Below are positions 1,407-49,443 of a stretch of DNA of 64,000 nt, piece by piece. The position numbers were made by a program, and so were the translations under genes. Below the pieces are notes generated by a model. It searched no databases, was not told the DNA's origin, and saw only the letters and a list, made by a program, of their open reading frames with translations. Every line of letters begins with the position of its first letter. Positions within the stretch are counted from its first letter, which is position 1. This DNA comes from Planctomycetaceae bacterium (GTDB taxonomy: Bacteria; Planctomycetota; Phycisphaerae; Sedimentisphaerales; UBA12454): the NCBI GenBank assembly GCA_021371795.1, contig JAJFVK010000019.1:310001-374000 (forward strand). The letters are read 5' to 3'.

Positions 1407-2477
1407 TCACAATCGGGCAACTGTGCCCATATCCTCATACTCTGCCGGAATTAATACGTGACGAATGTTGGTTTTAGGATTGAGCACAAATTCAGTGGCT
1501 AAGTCCACCATTGCCCGTCCCATTTCACTCCAGTTTACTACCATCGTGGAAATCGGCTCAAAACCCATCACGCCGGGGATTCTGTGCTGACCGTCATATC
1601 CAATGATGCTCATATCCTGCGGCACTTTGAGACCATGCTCCCGCAGAACTACACGTAAAACATGAGCAATCAGGTCATTGGCCGCAACAACGGCTGTCGG
1701 CATTGGTTTCAAAGCTATGACACGTTCAGCGAGTTCTCTCAAATCACTCATTACTTCTTCGTGCGTGCTTGGCGTATAATCATTTCTCGAACAGTCCTTG
1801 GCAATAATCAGACCATCAGTACTTAAACCCACGTTATTCATACCAATCATATAGCCATTTTGCCGCTGGTGTAAATTATATGTGCGTTGCGGATAATCCT
1901 CGTGTCTGCATACAAACGCAATGCGCTTGTGCCCTAATTCAGCAAGAACTTCTACTGCTCTTGATGCAGCGCCAATATTATCACTGTTGACTGTGCTCCA
2001 TTTTGAACCTGGTATATGGTTGTCGCCCACTACGACAGGTATATCGAATCCACGCAGAGCTTCATAAGTATCCGGTGCAATGCGTCCAAAAACTAATATG
2101 ACACTTACCGAACTTCGTGGAAATCTTTTTAAATCATTGGACGACCGAACGGTATAAAATCCCGAATATTGTCCCCTGTCCTGCAGCGAACTGCTGACTG
2201 AAGAAAAAATCGCATTGTAATTCCAAAGACCCTCAAAGCACGACAGACTAATTACTTTCTTATTCGATACTTTAACTTTCATTTTAAGAAGAATGCCGTC
2301 TTTCTCTTCTTTGCTAAGATAGCCGTGACTGAAACAGTAATTAAGAATGCGAGTGGCAGTAGCCAAAGATGTAGTTCCCCGGCCATAATCTCCCTTGAGT
2401 GTTCTCGAAACTGTTGCTGGTGAAACAGATAACTTTGTCGCAACATCTCTTACTCTCACTTTTGCATCCACCGGCAT
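1407..2477 (-). CDS. LacI/GalR-family transcriptional regulator
   Basis: 356 aa. The N-terminus has the LacI helix-turn-helix (VRVRDVATKLSVSPATVSRTL, about residues 7-27), followed by a periplasmic-binding-protein-like effector domain with the typical SIIGYDG block near residue 290. TTGGAGG lies 8 nt before the ATG. The hinge helix is atypical: the usual GYxPN block is replaced by a longer stretch (FSHGYLSKEEKDG). It is divergent from the GH130-symporter operon and probably controls it in response to an oligosaccharide or its breakdown product. Its own promoter, TTGACA-17-TAGTAT, is at 2526-2554. Confidence 0.9.
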   Translation of the reverse strand: MPVDAKVRVRDVATKLSVSPATVSRTLKGDYGRGTTSLATATRILNYCFSHGYLSKEEKDGILLKMKVKVSNKKVISLSCFEGLWNYNAIFSSVSSSLQDRGQYSGFYTVRSSNDLKRFPRSSVSVILVFGRIAPDTYEALRGFDIPVVVGDNHIPGSKWSTVNSDNIGAASRAVEVLAELGHKRIAFVCRHEDYPQRTYNLHQRQNGYMIGMNNVGLSTDGLIIAKDCSRNDYTPSTHEEVMSDLRELAERVIALKPMPTAVVAANDLIAHVLRVVLREHGLKVPQDMSIIGYDGQHRIPGVMGFEPISTMVVNWSEMGRAMVDLATEFVLNPKTNIRHVLIPAEYEDMGTVARL

Positions 2478-13524: not shown

Positions 13525-13596
13525 GCCGGTGTAGCTCAACGGTAGAGCGCGGCTTTCGTAAAGCCGAGGTTTTGGGTTCGAATCCCACCATCGGCT
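13525..13596 (+). tRNA. tRNA-Thr (anticodon CGU)
   Basis: Full cloverleaf: acceptor GCCGGTG/CATCGGC with one G-U, D-arm GCTC-AACGGTA-GAGC, anticodon arm CGGCT-TTCGTAA-AGCCG, TTCGAAT T-loop with GGG/CCC stem. Anticodon CGT reads ACG. No CCA is encoded; a T-run follows directly and may end transcription. Confidence 0.95.
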
Positions 13597-13650
13597 TTTT
13601 GTTGGCCACAGAGCTCACAGAGAACACAGAGATAAAAATAATGAATATGT

Positions 13651-13673
13651 AGGGTGGGCTTTAGCCCACGCGG
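13651..13673. repeat. Palindromic dispersed element GTGGGCT-TT-AGCCCAC-GCGG
   Basis: Perfect 7-bp stem (13654-13660 and 13663-13669) with a 2-nt loop, preceded by AGG and followed by GCGG. A closely matching element with the same layout lies inside the rhomboid gene at 48496-48515. Just before it is a CACAGAG-rich stretch (13606-13632) of the degenerate kind seen between genes in many environmental genomes. Confidence 0.6.
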
Positions 13674-26271: not shown

Positions 26272-27947
26272 TTTGCGTTTGCGTCTTTTGTTTCTGAAGA
26301 TTTGCGCATTAACTCTTCGATTCTTTTGAGCCCGTCTTTTGCCGCCTGCAAATCCGGTACGAGCCACAGGGCTTCTTTATATCGCCGCTGCGATTCAGCG
26401 TATCTGCCTTCGTTAGTCAGAGCAATGGCCATATTGATGTTCGCGTTTATATACATATTCCGAAGCATCGGATAATCGAATCTCGACACATTTACATTTC
26501 GTTCATCGTTTACATCATCCGGCAGAGGCGGCAGCAGCTTTTCATACATTTTAATCGCCAGTTTCCAGTCGCCTTTGTAAAGGCTTATCTTGGCCAACTC
26601 GTAATACATCGACGCGTTATCCGGCGAAATCTCCAGCGATTTTTTCAACATATCTTCGGCTACATCATACTCACCCTGCTTTCCCATCGCCACGCCGAGA
26701 AATCCATACGCCCACCAGTTTTTGTCCACCACATCTATCGCGTGCGAATATAGCGTATAATTATTCTGCCAAAACATATTTTGGATATAAGTTTTAATGC
26801 CGAGCGAAAAAAGCAGCAGCCCTGCGAATACTCCGTAAAATAGTTTTCGCGAGTTTATTTTTGCAGGCACATCGCAGACCAACCACGTAATTGCGATAAA
26901 CAAACCGATGTAAGGAATATAAGTGTATCGGTCAGCGTGCGACTGCATACCAACCTGAAACAAACCGATAACAGGAACAAGCGTCCCCATAAACCACAGC
27001 CAACCGATTGCAAGATATGGTTTGCTGCGAATTTTCTGCAGAGCAAAAATCGTTACAACCGCCAGAATCAATATCGCAGTAACCGTATGAGCCGGCGAGA
27101 TAGTCCCTTTTGGGTGCGGATAAAATATCGCCAGATTAAACGGCCAAAACATTTTTTCTATATATATTACATAAGAAGCGATGGCGTTTTCCAGCCGCCA
27201 GGTAAAAGGATAACGCATCATATCCTTTACTATACCCATCTGACGCTGAACCAAAAATGTAACAATACTCAAAATTCCCGAAAGTGCGAAAAATGGAATC
27301 TTTTCCGCAATAAGCAGTTTTAACTTTACATTCTTTAATCTTTGCAGCGGCCAATAATCCAGCAGCAGCAAAACGCACGGCAGTGTTACAAGCATCGGTT
27401 TTGAAAGCAATCCAAGCGTAAATGTAATGAGCGTTAAAACATAATATCTTTTAGATTTGTTCTGTACATAATGCCAATAAGCCAGCATTGTCAGTAACCA
27501 GAAGAAAGCACTCAAAACATCTTTTCTTTCGCTTGCCCAGGCAACTGATTCGACGTGCATCGGATGCAGCGCAAAAAGTGCCGCGACAAATGCGCTCGCC
27601 CATATTCGTTTTGTCATACTGCTCAAGACAAAGAATAGCAGAGCAGTGTTGGCCAGATGGAAAACAAGATTAGTTAAATGATGTCCGCCCGGATGCAGCT
27701 TATAAAGTTGGCAATCCAGCATGTGTGAAATAGAAGTCAGCGGATGGTAATTATTGGAGTGAATATTCGTAAACGCCCACACGATGTTGTTTATATTCAG
27801 GCCTGAAGTTATATGCGGATTGTCATAGATATACGAATCGTCGTCGAAACTGACAAAACTGTTATGAAGTATCGGTTCGTAAACGGCAAATGTGATAATC
27901 GCCAGTACGATGTAAATTAAATAGATGCGGTATTTTGTTTCCATCAT
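26268..27947 (-). CDS. TMTC-like membrane glycosyltransferase with C-terminal TPRs
   Basis: 559 aa. About 10-11 membrane helices in the first 380 residues with the recognisable blocks NSFVSFDDDSYIYDNPHI, NYHPLTSISHMLDCQLY, GGHHLTNLVFHLANT and LFALHPMHVESVAWASERKDVLS, which match bacterial O-mannosyl/O-GlcNAc transferase-like TPR proteins. The C-terminal 170 residues hold tetratricopeptide repeats (GVAMGKQGEYDVAEDMLKKSLEISPDNA). Likely protein glycosylation at the membrane. The third GT-C-like protein within 5 kb. Confidence 0.82.
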   Translation of the reverse strand: MMETKYRIYLIYIVLAIITFAVYEPILHNSFVSFDDDSYIYDNPHITSGLNINNIVWAFTNIHSNNYHPLTSISHMLDCQLYKLHPGGHHLTNLVFHLANTALLFFVLSSMTKRIWASAFVAALFALHPMHVESVAWASERKDVLSAFFWLLTMLAYWHYVQNKSKRYYVLTLITFTLGLLSKPMLVTLPCVLLLLDYWPLQRLKNVKLKLLIAEKIPFFALSGILSIVTFLVQRQMGIVKDMMRYPFTWRLENAIASYVIYIEKMFWPFNLAIFYPHPKGTISPAHTVTAILILAVVTIFALQKIRSKPYLAIGWLWFMGTLVPVIGLFQVGMQSHADRYTYIPYIGLFIAITWLVCDVPAKINSRKLFYGVFAGLLLFSLGIKTYIQNMFWQNNYTLYSHAIDVVDKNWWAYGFLGVAMGKQGEYDVAEDMLKKSLEISPDNASMYYELAKISLYKGDWKLAIKMYEKLLPPLPDDVNDERNVNVSRFDYPMLRNMYINANINMAIALTNEGRYAESQRRYKEALWLVPDLQAAKDGLKRIEELMRKSSETKDANAN

Positions 27948-48309: not shown

Positions 48310-49443
48310 CTAATGTTTCGGAATCTTCACCGGTCTTTTGCACAGCGGGCACTTGCCAATTTTACCGGCGTATTGAATCGGCATTTTCAGTTTTTTACCG
48401 CACTCACAAGAAAAGCGTATAATGCCGACAGGAGCTTCCTGCGGTCGTGTATGCACTGAAACCTTTGGCACTGGAGCGGCAGGTGTTTGCGTGATGTGGA
48501 CTCCAGTCCACGCGGCATTCTCCGGCTGCAAAAACTCGCCAAGTTCCGGCGGCAATTCGGAAGACTGTTTGAAAAACGCATCGGCGGGTAATACAGGTAT
48601 TTCTATTTTAGGTGCAGTTTTTATTTCTTCCTGAACCTGCTGCTCTTGCATAAAATCGCCGGCAATGGCGCGATTCCAGTTTTGTACTTTAGGTTTAGCG
48701 GCTTGCTTTCTGTCTTCGAGCATCTGCAACAGCGATATTTCATAGCGTTCCATTTTGATGAAGTTTGTTTTCAGCATTACAATCGCAATCGCAACCCCTG
48801 CTGCGAAACCGCCTATGTGTGCGAAATACGCGACGTTGCTGTGGCCGATAAATGCGCCGAAAATATCAAACGCGAACCACAGTAAAATAATCGCGTAACT
48901 TGGAACATCGAATTGCCGCCAGTAAATTAATGTTATCGTACAAAAGCACGTGATCTCATTTGTCGGAAAGAACACAAGATACATTCCGACAATACCATTA
49001 ATAGCGCCGCTTGCGCCGAGCATCGGCATATTGCCTGAAAAAAGCAGGTACGACACACCTGCGCAAAGCCCCACAAAAATATAAATCGGCAGATAAATTA
49101 GATTGCCTATTTTAGAGCAGACAGAATTGCCAAAAATCCAGAGAAACAGCAGATTTCCAGCAATATGAAATATATCGCCGTGCAGCCATATATGCGTAAA
49201 CAGTTGCTTAAACGACCAGCCGTCAAGCATATAGTCATCGTAAGGAACTTTAATGCTTTCGATTGAATTTACATCCTCTTGCGTCAGAGTGTACTTATCG
49301 CCGACAATCTGCTCAATTTTCTCACGGCGCTGCCGATTTTGGGGAATCTGCCATGCAAAGACTGCAATGATAGATATTATCAAGAGCCAGTTGAGAAACG
49401 GCAGCTTGTCCTGCGGCACGTCAACCTTCCACGGTATTATCAT
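48310..49443 (-). CDS. Rhomboid intramembrane serine protease with zinc ribbon
   Basis: 377 aa, AAAGGAGG site. Six membrane helices; catalytic Ser145 in the GASG motif and His208 in FAHIGGFAAG, with HIAGNLLFLWIFG in the N-terminal part. Residues 250-340 are a Pro/Glu-rich cytoplasmic linker; the last 35 residues are a zinc ribbon (CECGKKLKMP...CPLCKRPVKIPKH). Cleaves membrane proteins within the bilayer. The zinc ribbon tail is not part of standard rhomboids and may pick substrates. The linker region contains a palindromic repeat (see 48496). Confidence 0.9.
   Translation of the reverse strand: MIIPWKVDVPQDKLPFLNWLLIISIIAVFAWQIPQNRQRREKIEQIVGDKYTLTQEDVNSIESIKVPYDDYMLDGWSFKQLFTHIWLHGDIFHIAGNLLFLWIFGNSVCSKIGNLIYLPIYIFVGLCAGVSYLLFSGNMPMLGASGAINGIVGMYLVFFPTNEITCFCTITLIYWRQFDVPSYAIILLWFAFDIFGAFIGHSNVAYFAHIGGFAAGVAIAIVMLKTNFIKMERYEISLLQMLEDRKQAAKPKVQNWNRAIAGDFMQEQQVQEEIKTAPKIEIPVLPADAFFKQSSELPPELGEFLQPENAAWTGVHITQTPAAPVPKVSVHTRPQEAPVGIIRFSCECGKKLKMPIQYAGKIGKCPLCKRPVKIPKH
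48496..48515. repeat. Palindromic element inside the rhomboid gene
   Basis: GTGGACT-CC-AGTCCAC followed by GCGG: same stem length, loop length and trailing GCGG as the intergenic element at 13654-13673. It is read in frame as WTGVHIT in the linker before the zinc ribbon. Confidence 0.55.

Follow-up and report, generated by a model that had tools for sequence, protein, structure and literature searches.

A palindrome in the linker of a rhomboid-family protein is, on balance, probably an old and no longer mobile copy of the genome's GTAG-tagged REP that entered this disordered linker in antisense orientation without breaking the frame. It lies in a window of 64,000 nucleotides from a Planctomycetaceae bacterium (Table 1), and its origin is argued from sequence comparison, with a prior for aged REP copies that is an estimate and not a measurement. 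Against the observed background of a REP family, its clade of REP-associated tyrosine transposases (RAYTs) and translated REP copies in other genes of the same bacterial family, we infer that the rhomboid copy arose by insertion.

Table 1. Positions of the features discussed, in the window and in related genomes.
Feature	Location	Position	Strand	Description
REP-like 25-mer, rhomboid linker	Window	48491..48515	+	GTGAT (tag decayed or absent), arm GTGGACT, loop CC, arm AGTCCAC, GCGG
Tag position of the rhomboid copy	Window	48491..48495		GTGAT
Rhomboid palindrome GTGGACTCCAGTCCACGCGG	Window	48496..48515	+	
Rhomboid-family protein	Window	48310..49443	-	ORF, 377 aa; Pfam PF01694 Rhomboid, E 3.1e-30
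tRNA-Thr(CGT) gene	Window	13525..13596	+	Just upstream of the intact REP
CACAGAG...ACAGAG-like text	Window	13597..13640		After the tRNA-Thr gene
Intact GTAG REP GTAGGGTGGGCTTTAGCCCACGCGG	Window	13649..13673	+	Intergenic; 0 mismatches
Look-alike intergenic palindrome GTGGGCTTTAGCCCACGCGG	Window	13654..13673	+	
Translated REP, 516-aa membrane protein	G000:C1 (window's genome)	27081..27105		
Translated REP, MurF	G009			
Translated REP, YgiQ	G009			
Translated REP, MnmE	G002			
Translated REP, 1-phosphofructokinase-like PfkB protein	G007			
Three palindromes, PfkB-like gene	G007 (L161)	1500..1524; 1993..2017; ~2157..2183		Frame open through all three

Both palindromes of the window, in the rhomboid gene and in the intergenic space, were found where the initial annotation had placed them. 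The likeness in stem, loop and trailing GCGG on which it had based the repeat stood up, but the unit is really a 25-mer that includes a 5' GTAGG tag, with the consensus GTAGG, arm GTGGGCT, loop TY, arm AGCCCAC and GCGG. The pattern GTGGRCTNNAGYCCACGCGG has three matches in the window at up to three mismatches, one of them the reverse reading of the intergenic palindrome, against 0.04 expected from shuffles. Compared with the consensus GTAGGGTGGGCTTYAGCCCACGCGG, the rhomboid 25-mer is identical at 19 of 25 positions and keeps a perfect 7-bp stem. Of its six mismatches, the tag accounts for three and the loop for one, and the stem differs by a single compensated pair; the second-nearest place in the window has nine mismatches. 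The rhomboid copy thus has the short GC-rich hairpin stem of a GTAG-tagged REP and, at the tag position, GTGAT instead of the 5' GTAG. The in-frame WTGVHIT that had been read within the linker was borne out as part of AAWTGVHIT, antisense to the REP orientation and in the frame (xAWAKAHPT) in which the REPs of MnmE and the 516-aa protein are also read antisense. Judged by eye, four codons differ from the REP, each of them non-synonymously, and the third codon position holds only one of the six differences. The C-terminal zinc-ribbon-like segment of the protein owes its name to the initial annotation and has no family match behind it.

The intergenic element belongs to a dispersed family. The window's genome comprises 2.85 Mb in 28 contigs (98% complete), and the palindrome core was found there at 15 places, directly preceded by GTAGG or GTAGT at 14 of them and by GTGAT at the rhomboid copy, which is also the only one in this genome with an A-T stem change. 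The expectation of further genomic copies was thereby confirmed: the intergenic REP of the window and 13 others combine GTAG with a hairpin, are dispersed and mostly intergenic, and were probably spread as mobile elements. At up to three mismatches, the full 25-mer is found 117 times, spread over 6 of the 13 family genomes (14 in the window's own; 40, 13, 41, 7 and 2 in the others), and a reversed control pattern not at all; at 36 of 40 places inspected by eye, GTAG lies within 6 nt. The exact 25-mer with a TTTA loop recurs in 41 stretches of GTDB genomes, from Planctomycetota MAGs (GWC2_45_44, GWF2_42_9, GWF2_41_51, HGW-Planctomycetes-1, UR.bin163 and AUK274 among them) together with several Pseudomonas, one Nevskiaceae MAG and one uncultured bacterium. 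Its presence in both Planctomycetota and Pseudomonas or Nevskiaceae (L246, L253, L256, L258, L259, L268, L281) may reflect horizontal spread or convergence. The text between the tRNA-Thr gene and the intact REP may be another dispersed repeat, and somewhat similar ACAGATTACGCAGATT-like text adjoins REPs in L024 and L030.

A transposase accompanies these elements in relatives. In genome G009 (C88), a 180-aa gene between two REP copies encodes a RAYT (NCBIfam REP_Tyr_transpos NF047646, E 4.9e-54, over its cut-off). At a threshold of E 1e-10, 47 of the order's 161 genomes have a homologue of it. Inspection by eye of 30 homologue loci, some with cut flanks, revealed GTAG-type tagged hairpins on both sides at 19, on one side at 8 and on neither at 3. 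This combination of RAYT gene and flanking tagged hairpins identifies the element as a GTAG REP with its RAYT, of the same type as those reported in Di Nocera et al. 2013 (PMC3733652). The TTTA-loop REP itself stands at 3 of the 30 loci, two of them having exchanged a G-C pair for A-T, and GTAGGATGGGCTTTAGCCCATGCGG flanks the RAYT in L305 with a near copy in L309; REP lineages thus ordinarily differ by paired changes in the stem. A search at E 1e-10 or better found no RAYT of the G009 clade in the window's genome, and none of its eight more distant Y1 transposase matches has the REP core within 1.5-kb flanks. The REPtron arrangement of a RAYT flanked by cognate REPs was therefore seen in relatives and not in the window's genome, and since no RAYT of the clade was found in this 98%-complete genome, its REP copies are probably relics.

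This picture agrees with what has been published. Passages of Di Nocera et al. describe GTAG REPs as dispersed short hairpins with a GTAG tag and RAYT genes flanked by REPs, place some of them entirely within ORFs of known proteins, and name Planctomycetes and Verrucomicrobia among the hosts (PMC3733652). The elements reported here resemble them in tag, hairpin, dispersal, RAYT flanking and intragenic copies, a likeness drawn from those descriptions, and the rhomboid copy differs from them in having no tag. The RAYT step is well established in other bacteria: in the work on REPtrons, single-stranded hairpins with a GTAG tag are bound and cut by TnpA-REP proteins, whose activity is affected by the GTAG motif and whose cleavage is lowered by mismatches in the stem (PMC8266576). 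The RAYT loci of the family share with those REPtrons an HuH tyrosine transposase with GTAG hairpins beside it, whereas the RAYTs here come from an uncultured order of Planctomycetota, are predicted from sequence, and belong to a clade not found in the window's genome. The initial annotation had likened the rhomboid palindrome to the palindromic elements of Rickettsia. The likeness holds in that both are palindromes translated within genes, but GTAG REPs with their transposases are the better comparison: in the passages of PMC3733652 that treat Rickettsia, RPE-4 and RPE-6 are placed in the CGTC super-family and equated with intragenic R. conorii REPs of CGTC type, and RPE-1 is longer, whereas the family studied here consists of GTAG REPs 25 nt in length that have a transposase of their own. 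Membership in the Rickettsia-type classes, as defined there, was ruled out on these grounds. Translated intragenic GTAG REPs, the Rickettsia link included, are thus already on record in that source, and a literature search over titles and abstract openings found no description of the particular insertions reported here.

Translated REPs were recognized in five genes of the family. Among the 117 REP places, 110 are distinct in the loci examined for ORF overlap, and 5 of these 110 lie well inside long ORFs judged real (Table 1); the 516-aa membrane protein has no family match. REP-spanning ORFs such as those of L001, L002, L030, L071, L079, L185, L207 and L213 were judged spurious or mis-started and not counted, and L217 (MraW/RsmH-like) was set aside with its REP at the extreme C-terminus and a masked stretch in the gene. 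At the REP, MnmE has seven extra residues relative to 1xzp and a difference of only three relative to 9hip, and the PfkB protein has eight extra residues relative to both 2abq and 2jgv. MurF is longer by only about three residues net, whether compared with the E. coli protein (1gg4) or with several members of the family that have no REP, so that the REP has replaced some native loop residues. The proposal that such a palindrome is tolerated when translated accordingly holds for MurF, MnmE, YgiQ and the 1-phosphofructokinase-like protein.

Two of these genes could be followed across species. Of 13 murF genes, one (G009) carries the REP, one (G008) a worn copy with 6 of 25 mismatches in which the left half is kept and the stem broken, and one (G007, L286) both halves of this REP at the corresponding position, their arms separated by a much longer loop of over 20 nt; nine have none and one (L293) was unscanned. 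Comparison of these genes indicates that the MurF insert is kept in related species. The long loop in L286 looks like the outcome of an insertion into the hairpin loop or of a copying event inside it. For YgiQ, a radical SAM protein, eight orthologues (L234-L241; two short matches were left out) were compared over the codon region after YQ. This loop holds the GTGGGC REP in G009; in G007, G012, G010 and, imperfectly, G004 it holds a second type of palindrome, also GC-rich (TTAGCCCC...GGGG), and it has no insert in three of the eight, including the window's genome. On these alignments, it is a shared insertion site, occupied in different species of one bacterial family by palindromes from two REP-like families. 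The G007 PfkB-like gene likewise combines one GTGGGC REP with two palindromes of the TTAGCCCCC...GGGGG type. The second type is dispersed and adjoins several other Y1 transposase genes; TTAGCCCC...GGGGT was noted beside those of L113, L122, L123, L125, L128, L130, L131, L133 and L135, in some cases on either flank. This arrangement looks like another REP and transposase system, one that lacks the GTAG tag.

For the rhomboid itself, homologues were sought in the 13 family genomes and in 161 genomes of the order. The best are about 45-60% identical, and none has an alignable linker; scans of GTDB contigs and viral contigs with the rhomboid returned no relative. With no alignable linker and hence no empty site in any homologue, the insertion cannot be demonstrated, and with the tag also absent, the rhomboid copy is not established as one of the tolerated REPs. 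Linkers were parsed at 29 of 31 loci, two unparsable ones being left out; the GTGG palindrome is confined to the window's own gene, and a few other linkers contain unrelated short inverted repeats. This distribution and the weak hairpin make it very improbable that the palindrome is kept because its hairpin or sequence has a function in the rhomboid gene or its transcript, such as binding a protein or directing RNA decay, an explanation that would account for a stem that is perfect despite one pair differing from the REP consensus.

Coincidence, whereby ordinary linker codons happen to form a REP-like 7-2-7 palindrome followed by GCGG, is a serious possibility that we place somewhat short of even. 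The window holds eight perfect stems of at least 7 bp with a 2-nt loop, the hairpin energy of the rhomboid palindrome is unremarkable (z -1.6 versus -3.4 for the intact REP), and the GTAG tag, present in 14 of the 14 other copies in the genome, is missing. The ACT/AGT-CC version of the palindrome is single-copy in the window's genome, and the bare ACT/AGT 16-mer with its A-T stem variant stands at background frequency in the order, at 2 of 161 genomes for both it and the reversed control pattern. One of those two genomes (G118) carries a truly tagged ACT/AGT REP; as this is the sole tagged example in 161 genomes, an ACT/AGT subfamily as the source of the rhomboid copy was not established. Against coincidence, a perfect 7-bp stem with at most six mismatches over the 25 positions arose only 12 times in 4314 simulated 2.85-Mb coding genomes with the codon usage of the window, or 0.0028 sites per genome; this null superseded a second-order Markov one with zero events in 20 genomes. 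Because the pattern was picked after the rhomboid site had been seen, the true odds are weaker than this rate, which favours a worn REP without proving it.

A worn REP also finds support in the 14 true REPs of the same genome and the many in its family, in the RAYT between two of these REPs in G009 and its hairpin-flanked homologues, in REPs carried inside several genes, some in the same antisense frame, and in paired stem changes between lineages, as in GTAGGATGGGCTTTAGCCCATGCGG and the tagged REP of G118. Besides the missing tag, it has to contend with the non-synonymous differences, which would be unusual had a translated insert simply drifted, and with the aged murF copy of G008, which also has six mismatches and decayed in the opposite way.

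If the rhomboid palindrome is such a worn REP, its history may be outlined as follows. A RAYT would recognise single-stranded GTAG with its hairpin and spread REPs around the genome. A copy pasted into a gene would add about eight codons, as long as the overall change in length leaves the frame intact; four of the six reading frames of the REP consensus are free of stops by eye, so that there is room for a REP in a loop or linker that tolerates one. Copies bringing no stop in the frame of the gene could survive inside variable loops, where the tag, no longer under any maintenance, would later disappear. The rhomboid linker would have tolerated about eight extra residues, initially AWAKAHPT-like and now AWTGVHIT. 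A broader reading, which we hold only tentatively and consider less likely than not, is that the REPs spread by RAYTs in this Planctomycetota order have repeatedly supplied short in-frame peptides to core enzymes, at loops that are preferred targets. Such insertions would have been passed on and reshaped as species diverged, with the rhomboid linker as an older product and one ygiQ loop reached in separate lineages by REP-like palindromes of two unrelated families.

REPs are usually regarded as intergenic, and the rhomboid copy by itself adds little. The family as a whole presents translated REPs in graded states, fresh-looking in mnmE and the 1-phosphofructokinase-like gene, shared and remodelled in murF, slightly worn in ygiQ and perhaps nearly erased in the rhomboid. 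Such a graded series would make it possible to test how protein sequence arises from selfish DNA.
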